A stretch of DNA of 64,000 bases, from the NCBI RefSeq assembly GCF_009829685.1, contig NZ_VWSD01000003.1, forward strand, positions 1 through 64,000, read 5' to 3'. This stretch comes from Cellulomonas citrea (lineage in GTDB: Bacteria > Actinomycetota > Actinomycetes > Actinomycetales > Cellulomonadaceae). Both the position numbers and the translations under genes were made by a program. The notes under the pieces were generated by a model that saw only the letters and a list, made by a program, of their open reading frames with translations, did no database searches and was not told the origin of the DNA. Positions 55,644 to 62,223 of the stretch are shown here, piece after piece; within the stretch, counting starts at the first letter, position 1; every line of letters starts with the position of its first letter.

Positions 55644-56237
55644 ATGAACCTGGACGGTGTGCGCCTGCGTCGCTCCCCCACCCAGACCCGCTCCCGCGAC
55701 AAGGTGGAACGCGCCCTCGCCGCCGCCGAACGTGTGCTCGACCGCGACGGCGCCGACGCCCTCACCATCACCGCCGTGGCCGCCGAGGCCGACCTGCCCG
55801 TCGGCACCCTGCACCAGTACCTGCCCGACCGCGAGGCCATCACCGCGGCCCTCGCCGACCTCTACCACGCCCGGTTGGAGACGGCGCTCGACGAGGTGCT
55901 GGCCGCCGATCGGGCCGGGTCGCTGGATGATCCGGTGGCCACGACGGTGAATGCGATGTGCGAGGTGTTCCGGGCCACGTCCGGGGTGCGGGCGCTGCGC
56001 GGTGGGCAGCGAGACGAGGCGTCCGCGGAGCACCGGCAGCGGATGACGACGAAGGTCGGTGAGTTGCTGGGGGCTGATGGGCGCGCCGCGCCGGAGGCGG
56101 TGGCGCGGACCGTGTTCGTCGCGGTGGACGCGTTGCTGCGGGATGCATTCGCGGTTCACGCCGACGGGGATGCGGAGCTGATCGAGCAGACGGTGGTGCT
56201 GGTGCGGGGGTATGTGGTGGGGGCGCGACGGGGCTGA
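55644..56237 (+). CDS. TetR-family transcriptional regulator
   Basis: A 197-residue regulator. The N-terminal TetR HTH lies at about 15-65 (TQTRSRDKVERALAAAERVLDRDGADALTITAVAAEADLPVGTLHQYLPDREAI), and the C-terminal ligand domain is less conserved. The ATG at 55644 follows GAGGGAG; an in-frame ATG at 55620 lacks a ribosome site. It is divergent from the aldolase-kinase-GlpD operon and presumably represses it until a sugar or phosphosugar binds. Confidence 0.9.
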   Translation: MNLDGVRLRRSPTQTRSRDKVERALAAAERVLDRDGADALTITAVAAEADLPVGTLHQYLPDREAITAALADLYHARLETALDEVLAADRAGSLDDPVATTVNAMCEVFRATSGVRALRGGQRDEASAEHRQRMTTKVGELLGADGRAAPEAVARTVFVAVDALLRDAFAVHADGDAELIEQTVVLVRGYVVGARRG

Positions 56238-56294
56238 GGCGGCCCCTGGACCTCCGGTGCGCTCCGCACACCTGACTGCCGCGAACCTGCGGAC

Positions 56295-56307
56295 TACGAT
56301 CGATCGT
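56295..56307 (+). promoter_or_regulatory. Promoter -10 with palindrome ahead of the putative toxin-antitoxin genes
   Basis: TACGAT (56295-56300) overlaps the perfect 12-bp palindrome ACGATCGATCGT (56296-56307), 29 bases before the small gene. A palindrome on the -10 fits autorepression as in toxin-antitoxin operons. Confidence 0.45.
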
Positions 56308-56336
56308 GGCAACCCAGACCGGTCGGAGGTGGAGCA

Positions 56337-56495
56337 ATGGCACGCCGCGTCGTCGAACCGAGTGCAGTGAAGCGCTCCGCCGCCAAGTCCGCCCAGGTCT
56401 CGGCGAAGCTGGAGCGCCGAGTCGTGCCGGACGGCTTCGTCAGGTCCGCGACGTCTGACCAGTACGTGACCGCGAAGACCCGCCGCCCTGCGTGA
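56337..56495 (+). CDS. Small basic protein, putative antitoxin of the Fic partner
   Basis: A 52-residue, strongly basic protein (MARRVVEPSAVKRSAAKSAQ at the start, TAKTRRPA at the end), too short to be called by length alone. It is supported by a ribosome site (GGAGGTGGAG), an ATG at 56337 and a GTGA overlap with the Fic start. Small proteins at this position are antitoxins in Fic toxin-antitoxin pairs. A S-A-K-L-E run (residues 22-26) partly resembles the S/T-x-x-x-E-G/N inhibitory helix but lacks the final G/N. Function is therefore inferred from position only. Confidence 0.6.
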   Translation: MARRVVEPSAVKRSAAKSAQVSAKLERRVVPDGFVRSATSDQYVTAKTRRPA

Positions 56496-57124
56496 GCGGT
56501 CCGACCCCCGGGTACGGCGAGACCCCGCTCCCGCACGACGAGCTCACGGCTCTGATACCGGACGCGCGGGCGGTGCTCCCAGACCCGCCGACGAAGCTGG
56601 ACGTCTACGACCTCGAACAGGCCTTCGAGACCCGTGTGCGAGAGACCCTCTCGGTGGCGGTCCTGGGTGACGAGATCTCGCTGGACGATCTGCTGACGGA
56701 CCACTTCCTCCGCGACCTGCACCGGCAGATGTACGGCGCGATCTGGGCCTGGGCAGGCCGGCAACGAAAGCTCGAGACCAACATCGGCGTGGCGCCCGAA
56801 CAGATCGCGATGGAAACTCGGGCGTCATTCGACACTCTTCGGTACCGCTGGGAGAACACGGACGACTGGACAGCGGCACAGCTCGGGATCGCTGCGCACG
56901 CTGACCTCGTCCGCATCCACCCATTCGTCGACGGCAACGGACGCTCGACACGACTGCTCGCTGATCTGGTCTTTCTCGCGGCGCAAGACGCGGCCGAGCC
57001 ACCTGCGGTCTACGACTGGGACGTCGACAAGCAGCTCTACGTCGAAGCGCTGCGGCGCTACGACCGGCATCGCGACCCGACCGAGCTCGCCGCACTGATC
57101 GGGACACGGCTCATCGAGGAGTAG
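56492..57124 (+). CDS. Fic-domain protein (AMP-transferase-like toxin)
   Basis: A 210-residue Fic/DOC-fold protein. The active-site loop HPFVDGNGRSTRLLADLVF (His143, metal Asp147, the anion-binding G-N-G-R) is intact, and the upstream helix/flap region reads LHRQMYGAIWAWAGRQRKLETNIGV. Fic enzymes transfer AMP (or other nucleotide parts) to hydroxyl side chains of target proteins. No inhibitory S/T-x-x-x-E-G/N helix is obvious inside the protein, so control probably comes from the 52-residue partner encoded immediately upstream. It resembles the chromosomal mobile-mystery-protein-B type. GC is lower than in the flanking genes. Confidence 0.88.
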   Translation: MSGPTPGYGETPLPHDELTALIPDARAVLPDPPTKLDVYDLEQAFETRVRETLSVAVLGDEISLDDLLTDHFLRDLHRQMYGAIWAWAGRQRKLETNIGVAPEQIAMETRASFDTLRYRWENTDDWTAAQLGIAAHADLVRIHPFVDGNGRSTRLLADLVFLAAQDAAEPPAVYDWDVDKQLYVEALRRYDRHRDPTELAALIGTRLIEE

Positions 57125-57290
57125 TCGAGCCGCGACCGTGCCCATCCAGGTGACGGTGTCCCAAGGGCGTCGACCTGGCCAACGGGACGACACGGGTCGC
57201 CAACCCGACAAGCTCTCGATTCACCCCGCGGCACCTCGTGCAGTCAGGGCATTGTCGAGAAGGCACCAAGCCGAGCTGACCATCCGGCGG

Positions 57291-57296
57291 TATGAT
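57291..57296 (+). promoter_or_regulatory. -10 element of the DTSK-repeat gene (leaderless)
   Basis: TATGAT is near-consensus and ends six bases before the ATG at 57303, so transcription probably begins at the start codon. Confidence 0.5.
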
Positions 57297-57302
57297 CGAC
57301 GG

Positions 57303-58088
57303 ATGGCTGACAATGGAATTCCTGGAATGGACGGTGACGTGCCGAAGGAGTCCACTCAGAGTTCGAGCGAGGCTAGAGGCGACCGCGATCCCACCGATCC
57401 GGAGTCGCTCCAAATCTCGCTCGCCTCGTTCGACACGTCGAAGATGTTCGCGACTGCGTTTTCCGGGGTTGACACGTCGAAGATGTTCCGAGAGTCGCTT
57501 GCATCGTTCGACACGTCGAAGGTGTTCCGGGACTCGTTCGACACGTCGAAGATGTTCGCGACTGCGTATTCCGGGCTTGACACCTCGAAGGTGTTCCGGG
57601 ACTCGTTCGACACGTCGAAGATGTTCGCGACTGCGTATTCCGGGCTTGACACGTCGAAGTTCTTCCGAGAGTCGCTTGCATCGTTCGACACGTCGAAGAT
57701 GTTCCGAGAATCGTTCTCTGCGGCCGACTTCAGCAGGGGGCTGCTCGAGGGGATTTCGCAGGTTCAGAGTACGAGGTATCCGCGACCGAGAGTTGAGGTG
57801 GCGGAGGCGTTCAGTGATCTCGTCGATGCTCTTGACATTTCGAAGAGACCGAGCGAGACGCTTGCCGAGTTGGAAACGTTAGCGGAGGAGGTTTGCCAGG
57901 GCGAGAGAGATATCACGGAGGACGACAGGATTGCCATCGGCGCCTTCGCGGCAGCTTTGACAGTCTTGCTGCTCACATACTTCTACATTGCATATCCGGA
58001 TCTCACGGAGTTCGTTCTGAGCGAGGTGACATTTGTTCAGATTGCGTCACTTCTTGCAGTCCGAGTCTATAGGCGTCTTGGCAAGTGA
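57303..58088 (+). CDS. DTSK-repeat membrane protein of unknown function
   Basis: A 261-residue protein I do not recognise. Residues 43-134 carry eight copies of (F/V/L)-D-T-S-K-x-F, starting at 43, 56, 69, 79, 92, 102, 115 and 128. They are arranged as three 23-residue units (FDTSKMFATAYSGLDTSK-type) and two 10-residue half units (FDTSK-x-F-R-x-S). A ninth, degenerate LDISK lies near 180. The C-terminus has one or two membrane helices (about 215-255, IGAFAAALTVLLLTYFYIAYP, then VTFVQIASLLAV). The N-terminus is acidic with no signal peptide. Base composition and codons (ATA, TTG, CAT, AGA) differ from the neighbours, suggesting transfer. It lies next to the Fic module. Confidence 0.8.
   Translation: MADNGIPGMDGDVPKESTQSSSEARGDRDPTDPESLQISLASFDTSKMFATAFSGVDTSKMFRESLASFDTSKVFRDSFDTSKMFATAYSGLDTSKVFRDSFDTSKMFATAYSGLDTSKFFRESLASFDTSKMFRESFSAADFSRGLLEGISQVQSTRYPRPRVEVAEAFSDLVDALDISKRPSETLAELETLAEEVCQGERDITEDDRIAIGAFAAALTVLLLTYFYIAYPDLTEFVLSEVTFVQIASLLAVRVYRRLGK
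57429..57713 (+). repeat. In-gene tandem repeats (69-base units and 30-base half units)
   Basis: Near-identical 69-base units at 57429-57497, 57537-57605 and 57606-57674, plus 30-base half units near 57507-57536 and 57684-57713, encode the DTSK repeats. The copies at 57537 and 57606 are adjacent and almost identical in DNA, indicating recent duplication. Confidence 0.85.
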
Positions 58089-58759
58089 TAGGCGGAGTCT
58101 GCGGTGCCCCGAGGCACTCGCCTCCTGAGTGAAGCGCCGCAGTAGGCGGCACTATTGAGTTGAAGCAGCAACGTAACTCGGGAGGCTTCGACGGCACCCG
58201 GGGAGCCGGTGCGGGCCGGGCGCGCCCCGGTGAGGGGATGGCGGGGGCGGGGCGCGCCCACGGCGCGCCAGCGCCGAGCGCGCGCCCCGCCCGCTGACCC
58301 GCTCGGGACAGACGAACGCCACCGCACCCAAGCGCTCGTCGGGACCGGGCACAGGCTGAGGCGTCCATCCGATAGCGGAGCGACAGCCCGGAGCGGAGGC
58401 GGGGCGACCGGGCACCCCCGCGCGGGGGCCTAGGACCTTGGTGCGGAGCACCGTCCCTGGCCGAAAGTGGACCGCCCGGTGGAGCCGGCGCAGTGCAGGG
58501 CCACGCTCGGCGATCGGATGAACGCCGGTGGCGAGTCGCTAGACCAGGACCACGACGCGGAACTGGATGCCAAGCAGCCGCGGGTGCAGGTCGCGGGCTC
58601 ACCGGAAGGGGGGCGCCTTGCCGACCCGTCGCCAAGGCGAGTGCTGTAGTTCCCCTCGCTCCAGATCAGGGATCTGTCGGTCGAGACTCGACCACGCCCG
58701 GCCACTCCCGCCGCCACCAACCCCTCGCACCAGGCACTCCCATCCGCCACCATGAACCC
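58089..58759. other. Gene-free, hairpin-rich stretch
   Basis: These 671 bases hold no gene I can support. Short frames (for example 58467-58649) lack a ribosome site and family similarity. A 13-bp perfect stem (58244-58256 with 58279-58291) dominates the middle, and a smaller hairpin follows the DTSK gene (about 58096-58133). Composition changes sharply from moderate GC to G/C-rich. It could be a terminator region, an untranslated RNA or remnant DNA. I could not match it to tmRNA, RNase P RNA or 6C RNA. Confidence 0.5.
58244..58291. terminator. Strong hairpin in the gene-free stretch
   Basis: A perfect 13-bp G/C stem (58244-58256 with 58279-58291) encloses a 22-base loop that itself contains short complementary runs. 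There is no T-tract. It may be a terminator or a structured RNA element. Confidence 0.45.
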
Positions 58760-59835
58760 GTGACGCTTCCGGGGGGCACGTCCGTCGACACCGCTGCGCT
58801 GGCTGCGCCGCCTGACGAGCGTGTGCCCGTCTATGCGAGCTGGTCCAGGCGGGTGGTGGCTTCGGTGCTCGACGCCGCGCTCGGTTCGGGGCTGACGTTC
58901 CTCGTGCTGCCGGGGCTCGGCGGGGGCTTCCCGTTCCTCGGTCCGCAGATCATCACCGTCAGCCACGCCCCGGCGGGCGCGCCGTGGATCCACAACCCGT
59001 GGATCATCGCGATGCTCGTGGTGGCGGTCGCCATGCAGGCGTACGTCGGGGCGACCCCGGGCAAGCTCGTCGTCGGGATCGCCGTGGTGCGCGAGGCCGA
59101 TGCGCGCCCCCTCGGCCTGGTCAGGACGCTGCTTCGGTGGCTGGTCCATCTGCTCGACGCGATCCTGCTCATCGGGTATCTGCGACCGCTCTGGCACCCG
59201 AAGCGCAAGACCTTCGCCGACAGCATCGTCGGGAGCGTCGTGCTGGTCACCCGGCGGCCGCTGCCGCACCGGTGGTTCACGCCCCGCGCCGACGCGGCCG
59301 CCCACGCCGGGCCGCCGCTCGTCTGGGAGGCCGCGCAGGCACCCGGCTGGCAGCCGTGGGCGACCAGGGTCTGCGCCGTCGCCTGCGGGTTGGGCGTGCT
59401 GCTCAGCGTGGGGTACTCCAGCAACGTCGACGGCGCGGCCGCCGAGGCGCGGTGCACGATGACCGCCCCCGACACCGGGAGCACCAGCCTGGCCGGCGCG
59501 ACGCTGCACCAGACGACGACCATCGTGACGACCACGCGGCTTGGCATCACACGGCCGACCGCACCGCCCGTGCGGTCCGTCTCGGTCACCTAGGCCCTGC
59601 ACGGCACGCTCCCCCCGACGAGTCGGCGAACCTACACGTGACGGTGACAGGTGCCGACGGAGTCAGCCGCTCCGAGAGCTTCCCGCTCGTCACGGACCCC
59701 TCCGGCAGCGACCCGACGACGACGCTGTCCCCCGACGCCCTCAAGCTCATCGGCCCGGAGTGGACCTGGACGGCCTGGGTCGAGGCCGACGGGGTCGAGT
59801 CCCCCGTCTGCACCGGCGCCGGGCCGGCGGCCTGA
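58760..59835 (+). pseudogene. RDD-family membrane protein with disrupted C-terminus
   Basis: The first 277 residues (58760-59593) form an RDD domain: PVYASWSRRVVASVLDAALGSG, a second helix at WIIAMLVVAVAMQAYVG, TPGKLVVGIAVV and KTFADSIVGSVVL, then another helix and an extracytoplasmic part. The frame stops at TAG (59591-59593), but coherent protein continues beyond. Reading TAG as TGG gives ALHGTLPP in the same frame, and after the C run at 59611-59616 the frame moves by one base and continues DESANLHVTVTGADG to a natural TGA at 59833-59835. So a nonsense change and a one-base deletion separate the C-terminal Ig-like tail from the body. The GTG start is weakly supported. Confidence 0.72.
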
Positions 59836-59842
59836 CCCGCCC

Positions 59843-60334
59843 TCACACCTCCGGCTCGAACCGCGCCAGCCACGTGCGCAGCGCGGGCTCCAACGCCCTC
59901 GCGGAGTCCTCACCGAGCTCGTCGAGCAGGCGGCGCTCGTTCGCCACGTGGGCCGTCACGGCGCGGTCGATGAGGTCGCGGCCGGCCGGGGTGAGGCGCA
60001 CGACGCGGGCGCGGCCGTCGCCCGGGGCGCGGTGACGTTCGACGAGGCCGTCGGCCTGCAGGCGGTCGAGGCGCTTGGTCATGCCGCCGGTGGTGACCAT
60101 CGTCGCGTCGGCCAGCTCGCTGGGGGCCCAGCCGTCGGGTGAGCGGCGCAAGGCGGCGAGCACGTCGAACTCGGCCTCGGTGAGCCCGAACTGGGCATAG
60201 ACGGCCACCAGCTCGGCAGTGAGGTGGGCCGCCACCAGGTGCAGCCGGCCGATCACGCCCATCGGGGAGAAGTCCTGGTCAGGGCGTTCGCGGGCCCACT
60301 GCTCCTGGATGCGGGCGACCTTGTCCGTCGTCAT
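59843..60334 (-). CDS. MarR-family transcriptional regulator
   Basis: A 163-residue regulator. The winged helix spans about 55-120 (LTEAEFDVLAALRRSPDGWAPSELADATMVTTGGMTKRLDRLQADGLVER) with the wing at GDGRARVVRLTPAG. It starts at the ATG at 60334. It is divergent from the EamA transporter with a 26-bp palindrome between them, so it most likely represses both genes and is relieved by a small aromatic or drug-like ligand. Confidence 0.92.
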   Translation of the reverse strand: MTTDKVARIQEQWARERPDQDFSPMGVIGRLHLVAAHLTAELVAVYAQFGLTEAEFDVLAALRRSPDGWAPSELADATMVTTGGMTKRLDRLQADGLVERHRAPGDGRARVVRLTPAGRDLIDRAVTAHVANERRLLDELGEDSARALEPALRTWLARFEPEV

Positions 60335-60340
60335 GCCCCG

Positions 60341-60366
60341 ACTATATCTTCCAAGGAAGGTATAGT
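60341..60366. promoter_or_regulatory. MarR-type operator containing both divergent -10 elements
   Basis: A 26-base near-perfect palindrome. The outer arms ACTATA (60341-60346) and TATAGT (60361-60366) are the -10 hexamers of the MarR and EamA genes, and the inner arms are CTTCC/GGAAG. Each -10 ends six or seven bases before its start codon, so both mRNAs look leaderless. Confidence 0.75.
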
Positions 60367-60368
60367 CG

Positions 60369-60380
60369 CTTCCATGGAAG
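60369..60380. promoter_or_regulatory. Second palindrome overlapping the EamA start codon
   Basis: CTTCCATGGAAG, a perfect 12-bp palindrome repeating the inner arms of the operator at 60341-60366, contains the ATG at 60374. Confidence 0.5.
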
Positions 60381-61324
60381 GTATCTTGCGGTGGCGGCTG
60401 CTCACGCTCATCCCCGCCGTGGTCTGGGGCTCGACCTACTACGTCACGCGGCACACGCTGCCCGCCGACTCCCCGCTGTGGGGCGCCGTGCTGCGCGCCC
60501 TGCCCGCCGGGCTGCTGCTCCTGCTCATCGCCCGCCGGCTGCCGCGCGGGGCCTGGTGGTGGCGTTCGGCCGTGCTCGGCATGCTCAACACCGGCGCCTT
60601 CTTCGCCCTCGTCTACCTGGCCGCCCAGCTGCTGCCCACCGGCATCGCGTCGGTCGTCATGGCCGCCTCACCGCTGGTGATGATGGGGCTGTCCGCCGTG
60701 CTGCTCGGCCGGCGGCTGCGCGTCGCCGGGGTCGGCGGGGCGCTGCTCGGGCTGGCCGGCGTCGTGCTCATGCTGTGGTCCGGGCCCGATGCGGTGGACC
60801 CGCGCGGGATCGCCGCCGCCGTCGGCGCGATGACCATGTCCTCGGTCGGCTACGTGCTCATGGCCCGGTGGACCGCCAAGGACGGGACCATCGCGGTGCT
60901 GCCCGCCACCGCCTGGCAGCTCGTCGCCGGCGGACTGTTCGTGCTGCCGGTCGCCGCCCTCGTCGAAGGTGCGCCGCCCGTGCTCGACCGCACCTCGCTG
61001 CTCGGGTTCGGGTACCTCACCGTCATCGCGACCGCCGTCGCCTACCTGCTGTGGTTCGCCGGGCTGGCCCGCCTCGGGCCCTCCGACCTCGCGCTCATCG
61101 GGCTGGCCAACCCGCTCACCGGCGTGCTGCTCGGCGCCGGGCTCGCCGGGGAACGACTCTCGGGCCGTCAGCTGCTCGGCGCCGGGCTGCTGCTCGCCGG
61201 CGTCGTGCTCGGTCAGGAACGCGCGGCGCGCAACGCGCCCGCCGGGCCGTCGAGCGTCACCGCACCGGAGCCCGTCGTCCCGACCCCGCTGCCCGCCACC
61301 TGCGGGTCGAGCCCCGCACGCTGA
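60374..61324 (+). CDS. EamA/DMT-family transporter
   Basis: A 316-residue drug/metabolite transporter with two EamA repeats and ten predicted helices: helix 1 LLTLIPAVVWGSTYYVTRHTL, the second repeat beginning near 150 (GIAAAVGAMTMSSVGYVLMA), and the end of the last repeat LIGLANPLTGVLLGAGLAGERL. It probably exports a metabolite or drug. The ATG at 60374 lies inside the second palindrome. The 3' end overlaps the convergent GDPD gene by 112 bases, giving a dispensable-looking Ala/Pro-rich tail. Confidence 0.92.
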   Translation: MEGILRWRLLTLIPAVVWGSTYYVTRHTLPADSPLWGAVLRALPAGLLLLLIARRLPRGAWWWRSAVLGMLNTGAFFALVYLAAQLLPTGIASVVMAASPLVMMGLSAVLLGRRLRVAGVGGALLGLAGVVLMLWSGPDAVDPRGIAAAVGAMTMSSVGYVLMARWTAKDGTIAVLPATAWQLVAGGLFVLPVAALVEGAPPVLDRTSLLGFGYLTVIATAVAYLLWFAGLARLGPSDLALIGLANPLTGVLLGAGLAGERLSGRQLLGAGLLLAGVVLGQERAARNAPAGPSSVTAPEPVVPTPLPATCGSSPAR

Positions 61325-62223
61325 GGCAGCGTCGGCCGGCCCACCGCCCGCTCACCCGCCTGCGGGTCGGACCCCGCGCGCTGAGGCAGCGCCGACCGGC
61401 CCACCACCCGCTCACCCGCCTGCGGGTCGAGCCCCACGCGCTGCGCCCCGGCTCGCGGACCCGTCGGCGCCCACGCACCCCGGGCCACCATCACCTCGCG
61501 CAGCACATCGGCGCGGTCGCTGATGAGGCCGTCGACGCCCGCATCGAGCAGCCGGTGCATCGCCGACGGGTCGTCCAGACCCCAGACCACCGTGCGCAGC
61601 CCGGCGTCGCGCGCCCGGGCGACGACCCGTCGGGCACCACCGCCACGCACGAGCGGGTAGGGCACGTGCACGTACGACGGGCCGTGACCCGGCGGCCGGA
61701 ACCGCCCCCAGCCGAGCAACCGGCCGATCGACTCCCAGCCCAGCGCCGTCGCCAGCCCCTCGCCCAGCCCGTCGCGGGCCGCCGCCAGCCACCGGTCACG
61801 CGTCCCGGCCAGGCACACCCGCCGGGTCGCCCCGGTGGACCGCAGCACGTCGAGCAGCGCCGGCAGGGTCAACGGGTCCTTGATGTCGATGGCCCAGCGC
61901 ACCCCAGGCCAGGCGGTGAGCAACGCATCCAGCCGGGCCACCCGGGTGCCGTCGCGAAACCGCAGCCGCTGCACCTCGTCCCAGGTGAGGGCGCTGATCG
62001 CGCCACCGGCACCGGCCAGGCGGCCCACCGTCCGGTCGTGGAACGCGACCACCACACCGTCACGTGTGGTGCGCGCATCGGTCTCCAGGTAGCGGTGGCC
62101 GAGGGCCAGCGACCGACGCGCCGCACGCACCGTGTTCTCCGTCGCCAGCCCGGCCCCCGCCCGGTGCGGGATCACCAGGGGCGCGTCCGGGGCGCCGTAG
62201 CAACCGCTCACGTCGAGGCTCAT
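61213..62223 (-). CDS. Glycerophosphodiester phosphodiesterase with repetitive C-terminal tail
   Basis: A 336-residue protein. Residues 1-245 form a GDPD TIM barrel: PHRAGAGLATENTVRAARRSL (the H-R and E-N of the active site), LETDARTTRDGVVVAFHD (metal E-x-D and catalytic His), WAIDIKDP, and VWGLDDPSAMHRLLDAGVDGLISDRAD at the end. It hydrolyses glycerophosphodiesters to glycerol-3-phosphate and an alcohol. Residues from about 255 form a low-complexity tail encoded by 60-bp tandem repeats. The ATGA overlaps the stop of the glycosyltransferase upstream. Most relatives end at the barrel, so the tail may be non-essential or the true stop lost. Confidence 0.87.
   Translation of the reverse strand: MSLDVSGCYGAPDAPLVIPHRAGAGLATENTVRAARRSLALGHRYLETDARTTRDGVVVAFHDRTVGRLAGAGGAISALTWDEVQRLRFRDGTRVARLDALLTAWPGVRWAIDIKDPLTLPALLDVLRSTGATRRVCLAGTRDRWLAAARDGLGEGLATALGWESIGRLLGWGRFRPPGHGPSYVHVPYPLVRGGGARRVVARARDAGLRTVVWGLDDPSAMHRLLDAGVDGLISDRADVLREVMVARGAWAPTGPRAGAQRVGLDPQAGERVVGRSALPQRAGSDPQAGERAVGRPTLPQRAGLDPQVAGSGVGTTGSGAVTLDGPAGALRAARS
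61301..61440. repeat. 60-bp tandem repeats (2.3 copies) in the GDPD gene
   Basis: Units begin at 61301, 61361 and 61421 with TGCGGGTCG(A/G), an exact period of 60 bases (20 codons, translated on the minus strand as QRAG(L/S)DPQAGER-type units). The first unit also overlaps the EamA stop. Confidence 0.9.

Follow-up and report, generated by a model that had tools for sequence, protein, structure and literature searches.

The gene considered here occupies positions 57303–58088 on the + strand of the window, by which we mean the whole 64-kb stretch of DNA analysed. It was called as an ORF for 261 aa, whose product combines an array of eight (F/V/L)DTSKxF copies (57432–57704, + strand) with a predicted C-terminal membrane hairpin. 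Upstream on the same strand are a gene for a Fic-domain protein (56492–57124) and, ahead of that, a 52-aa ORF (56337–56495). Both this frame and the eight (F/V/L)DTSK repeats within it lie where a sequence-only reading of this DNA had placed them. A chance reading frame at 57303–58088 is unlikely, because an independent relative, described below, aligns over residues 92–260 with 28% identity (E = 1.4e-10).

The composition of the gene is unusual. Its GC content is 56.4%, compared with 73.1% for the window, and it is the GC minimum among all 786-base windows of the 64 kb taken in 50-base steps. GC at third codon positions is 71% (83% in the repeat part and 63% in the part downstream of it) versus 83% for the Fic gene and 89% for the TetR gene nearby. 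Of the earlier statement that codon use and GC mark the gene as foreign, what stands is that it is an accessory gene of unusual composition.

A TATGAT hexamer (57291–57296, + strand), identified in a hexamer scan, is a probable −10 element. Leaderless bacterial genes, which account for more than 20% of genes in Actinobacteria, carry TANNNT about 12 bp ahead of the start codon, as stated in PMC3160421, and the pair formed by TATGAT at 57291 and ATG at 57303 has this arrangement. Since no other TATRAT occurs on the window's + strand and TATGAT begins exactly 12 nt before the ATG, a leaderless start of the repeat gene at 57303 is likely, and the leaderless promoter of its own that had been proposed for it is probable. 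A two-hexamer promoter scan of 56200–58800 returned 0 candidates, with 0.2 expected in shuffled sequence. The relative has no TATRAT within about 60 bases ahead of its listed start codon.

The tail of the protein had been described as membrane-anchored, and hydropathy bears this out with two hydrophobic stretches, at about residues 210–230 and 235–255. The two predicted membrane helices together with a basic end correspond to 57930–58085 (+ strand). No N-terminal stretch rises above the threshold applied to the tail. The C-terminus is basic (R254, R257, R258 and K261) and the charged residues of the loop between the helices are Asp and Glu, so that, by the positive-inside rule, both ends of the protein would be cytosolic. 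The segment leading into the first membrane helix carries a net negative charge and is of no help to this topology, which is therefore carried by the basic C-terminus.

The eight DTSK motifs start at residues 44, 57, 70, 80, 93, 103, 116 and 129, with spacings, in order, of 13, 13, 10, 13, 10, 13 and 13 residues; the 13- and 10-residue periodicity that had been noted thus extends across all copies. At the DNA level, the top-scoring array reported by Tandem Repeats Finder has a period of 69 bases (57510–57674; 2.4 copies, 93% match, score 295) and is enclosed by a wider, looser one at 57432–57704 with a period of 39 (7.5 copies, 66% match). In addition, the 115-base block at 57425–57539 is repeated 177 bases on, at 57602–57716, with a 94% match. 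The 69-base units described previously are thus real for part of the array, which as a whole is composed of 39- and 30-base units.

In a comparison of the ten core codons of the eight copies, with Met and Trp excluded, the same codon was used in 170 of 185 residue-identical codon pairs. Codons for Thr, Ser and Ala, which in this region would be expected to agree by chance at a rate of about 0.3, are near-invariant among the copies as well; for Lys, Phe and Asp, codon bias accounts for part of the sharing. The copies are most simply explained as recent tandem duplicates. Because they are near-identical at the codon level, the invariance of DTSK gives no grounds for assuming selection on Asp-Thr-Ser-Lys, and its regularity mainly reflects recent duplication. 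The functional binding or modification array that had been suggested loses its footing here, also because the relative has no DTSK: invariance produced by recent duplication is no evidence for a conserved functional motif.

A single relative held up on inspection. It is a 321-aa protein (G009:C7:47279-48241(-)) encoded on NZ_VEGH01000016.1 of Cellulosimicrobium cellulans DE0111. This protein shares with the window protein the two-helix tail and 27–28% identity over about residues 92–260, but it contains neither DTSK nor a tandem array of that kind, and its N-terminal part is longer. The segments of that N-terminal part are less regular than the repeats of the window protein. Counting the window's own genome, carriers amount to 2 of 148 close relatives and 2 of 221 genomes of the family. 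Further members were sought in samples of 394 genomes of the class, with the C-terminal 128 residues as query, and 396 genomes of the phylum, with the relative as query; none held up. Besides the window's own genome, a sample of 396 genomes of the order gave one match only, in G074 (1.3e-4; a Clp-type ATPase), judged by eye to be due to chance; this sample evidently did not include G009, as the query contained the G009 protein. Also judged by eye to be chance were matches in G058 (0.008), in six class-sample genomes (L009–L014; E = 0.003–0.047) and in G832 (8.6e-4), where stops interrupt the frame.

The protein had been called unrecognised, and indeed neither it nor the relative has a significant family match in Pfam, NCBIfam, PHROGs or PADLOC. 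In PADLOC there was no match at E ≤ 1 for the window protein or at E ≤ 0.001 for the relative; in PHROGs the best E value of the window protein was 0.13, which is not significant, and the relative gave nothing at E ≤ 0.1. Searches by tblastn found no match to the window protein in plasmid and phage records and none to the relative in plasmids. Among viral contigs, three protein or alignment scans detected no relative, and a DNA pattern for a double DTSK motif, written in high-GC codons only, was absent. A pattern scan of genome contigs, an insensitive one, yielded one relative among 90 pattern-matched stretches, the G009 protein itself. Among the papers searched, none contained all three of the whole words DTSK, repeat and transmembrane. 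The 13-residue, TSK-containing repeats of prepro-lysostaphin (PDB 6rk4) resemble the array (full-sequence phmmer E = 5.9e-6), but the two proteins have no domain in common; two stretches align by repeat spacing, with separate E values of 0.0088 and 0.28, and we regard the likeness as convergent.

The Fic-domain protein had been proposed as a partner of the repeat protein. It matches PF02661 at E = 4.9e-12, with a score of 47 against a cut-off of 24, and also the PADLOC candidate PDC-S04 (E = 1.8e-18); as mobile mystery protein B (TIGR02613) it scores 101.8 bits, under the curated cut-off of 124.4. At E ≤ 1e-20, Fic occurs in 7 of 81 genomes of the genus. It is joined by the repeat protein only in the window's own genome (G000), the repeat protein being absent from the other six, and no Fic protein was found at that threshold in the genome of the relative. 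Protein comparison showed that Fic has a different companion: the 52-aa ORF is conserved upstream of it in four relatives (G016, G053, G050 and G019; 61–64% identity), and was not found at the Fic loci of the more distant G010 and G044. In G012 the 52-aa ORF is kept with 78% identity, Fic was not found in the genome at E ≤ 1e-20, and the repeat protein is absent. For the 52-aa ORF, searches of Pfam, NCBIfam, PHROGs and PADLOC returned nothing significant; it is possibly a partner or antitoxin of Fic. Fic matches are split into two pieces in G016:C29 (L031) and G050:C277 (L033) and are partial in G019, which may reflect decay or sequencing errors.

Because the repeat protein is found in none of the six other Fic genomes nor in G012, and the relative's genome lacks Fic at E ≤ 1e-20, Fic and the 52-aa ORF appear to form a module of their own, separate from that of the repeat gene, to which Fic looks like a bystander. 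These distributions undo the proposed Fic association. They also bear on the idea that the Ser/Thr residues of the array are AMPylated by the neighbouring enzyme, which is adjacent, on the same strand, and carries HPFVDGNGR, which we take to be the active motif. With Fic and the repeat protein together only here, with no DTSK in the relative and with Fic keeping its own conserved 52-aa neighbour elsewhere, we consider AMPylation of the array extremely improbable. A homologue of the repeat protein beyond this strain, the absence of which would have counted against the earlier reading, does exist, but it is distant and comes with neither DTSK nor, at E ≤ 1e-20, Fic.

Comparison with close relatives suggests that the gene lies at a site of cargo exchange. 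The flanks of G012 are about 90–92% identical to the window at 55835–56440 and 58723–61218 (blastn). Between them, the window has 2282 bp (56441–58722), comprising the end of the 52-aa ORF, Fic, the repeat ORF and 3′ non-coding DNA, versus 1846 bp of different DNA in G012. Protein similarity of the 52-aa ORF to G012 extends to its end (about 56489), so the true break lies near 56490. The G012 segment contains a 353-aa frame (L028:1173-2234) with hydrophobic C-terminal stretches seen by eye; this frame has no family match at curated cut-offs and does not resemble the repeat protein in a sequence search. In G046, similarity ends at 56238 on one contig and restarts at 58727 on another, where a protein of the TcmP (three-Cys-motif partner) family is encoded beside the junction (L030:2393-3811; NCBIfam E = 1.1e-37); as the site is split over two contigs, the G046 insert is not closed. 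Judging from G012 and G046, cargo is exchanged at this site, which is flanked by the TetR and RDD genes, both named by eye.

The surroundings of the relative are different. The next gene downstream encodes a 5′-nucleotidase (PF06189, E = 1.8e-106; PADLOC PDC-S08, E = 6.1e-118). Further downstream are a HIRAN-like protein (E = 6.1e-5, under the Pfam cut-off; PDC-M03B, E = 2.6e-4) and a weak SLFN/AlbA_2 match (E = 5.3e-4, under its cut-off), and upstream are an Ogg-type glycosylase, a fusion of PfkB with nucleoside deoxyribosyltransferase, and a frame that looks QueC-like by eye. This setting is compatible with a defence-rich island; as there are two members only and their neighbours differ, we treat it as a hint and not as an association. 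The gene had been put forward as the strongest candidate for a new system in this DNA, a claim that falls short, because with a single relative no conserved partner gene can be demonstrated.

What the DTSK repeats might do structurally can be considered apart from modification. In a helix cap, a hydrophobic residue precedes an N-cap Asp, Ser or Thr, and a second hydrophobic residue follows four positions past the cap. The hydrophobic staple and the capping box are both named in a passage of a work on glutathione transferases (PMC4429112). The pattern (F/V/L)DTSK(M/V/F) may be better read as a hydrophobic-staple helix cap than as a modification array, and FDPSEVYREAL in the relative fits a hydrophobic staple with a capping box. 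Residues 1–230 of the relative contain 9 staple sites versus 5.1 in shuffles (4.7% of which reach 9), and 3 versus 1.0 for a stricter form (8% reach 3); outside its repeats, the window protein has 4 sites versus 1.7 (7%), and 2 versus 0.5 for the stricter form (7%). This enrichment is weak, and the motif was chosen after the sequence had been seen. The helical moments of the eight copies were matched by 5–6% of shuffles for two copies and by 10–29% for six. AlphaFold models of the window protein and the relative, built from two-row alignments and of very low confidence (mean pLDDT 40.9 and 38.0, respectively), are all-helical; a helix begins right after the Asp in five of the eight copies in the former and right after D176 in the latter.

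We tentatively favour, with a probability of roughly 0.45, the reading that the gene encodes an accessory protein whose helical stalk lies in the cytosol and is clustered at the membrane by a two-helix anchor, the number of repeats setting the length of the stalk. The gene, rare within one actinobacterial family and located at a variable chromosomal site, would probably be expressed from its own leaderless promoter. Its N-terminal repeats would form a stalk of short tandem helices, each opened by a (F/V/L)-Asp-Thr-Ser-Lys-(M/V/F) cap, and the hydrophobic tail, which the one relative shares, would form a two-helix hairpin with a basic end, leaving both termini inside the cell. Most likely, the stalk would associate with itself or bind a partner, which would gather the protein into clusters on the cytosolic side of the membrane. 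Tandem duplication, recent enough for the DNA of the copies to be near-identical, would increase the repeat number and with it the length of the stalk.

The same rarity (2 of 221 family genomes), together with repeats little altered since their duplication and the lowest GC in the window, would also be expected of foreign cargo without a selected function, an orphan frame whose repeats were expanded by slippage. We regard this as unlikely, given that the reading frame has been kept open, that the leaderless signal is well placed and that the tail resembles one from an independent locus at E = 1.4e-10. It is quite unlikely that the protein is a membrane-acting anti-phage effector, in which the helical stalk would sense or relay infection and the two-helix tail would disrupt the membrane. 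Both family members do adjoin PADLOC-candidate genes (PDC-S04 and PDC-S08), the HIRAN-like and SLFN/AlbA_2 matches lie further along the relative's locus, and the TcmP protein at the same site in G046 matches PADLOC PDC-M41A (E = 8.2e-9). Two-helix membrane effectors exist in defence: a pair of transmembrane helices is named for Cap1 (PMC12642688), and the term '2TM' occurs in the Panoptes paper (PMC12657218). The likeness to effectors such as Cap1 is one of layout, a cytosolic part followed by paired membrane helices, but no nucleotide-binding or enzyme domain was found in the repeat protein and no sensor or signal-binding domain in the family scans. Moreover, the two known members have differing neighbours, and neither protein matches PADLOC. 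A defence role for the repeat protein is possible but unproven.

BspA/DUF285 proteins have a similar motif, W-D-T-S-K-V, and a surface repeat adhesin of this sort, or another secreted repeat protein, would account for the superficial DTSKV likeness and the tail anchor. It is very improbable: Pfam gave no DUF285 (PF03382) match at E ≤ 1, no N-terminal hydrophobic stretch exceeds the threshold, and the basic C-terminus suggests that the ends lie inside. A bolder reading, which we consider a long shot, is that the two proteins belong to a rapidly diverging helical-repeat membrane family carried as cargo in variable loci and loci of the defence type, in which slippage alters the repeat number to tune clustering and the hairpin is the effector of an undescribed phage-response system. 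The finding itself is modest, namely a rare orphan family, recognised by its common membrane tail, at a site of gene exchange; should a membrane-acting role be shown, the accessory genes of high-GC actinobacteria would be extended by one small family.

Several smaller features of the DNA were noted around the gene. The only candidate for insertion ends, a direct repeat of 13 nt in which one position differs (56232–56244 and 58354–58366), was not convincing. Downstream of the repeat ORF, GC-rich inverted repeats with 22-nt arms (91% complementary) lie at 58202–58292; a scan for terminators gave no candidate with a T run. Beyond the variable segment, a 60-base tandem repeat (61299–61443; 2.4 copies, 89% match) is contained in a − strand frame at 61213–62223.
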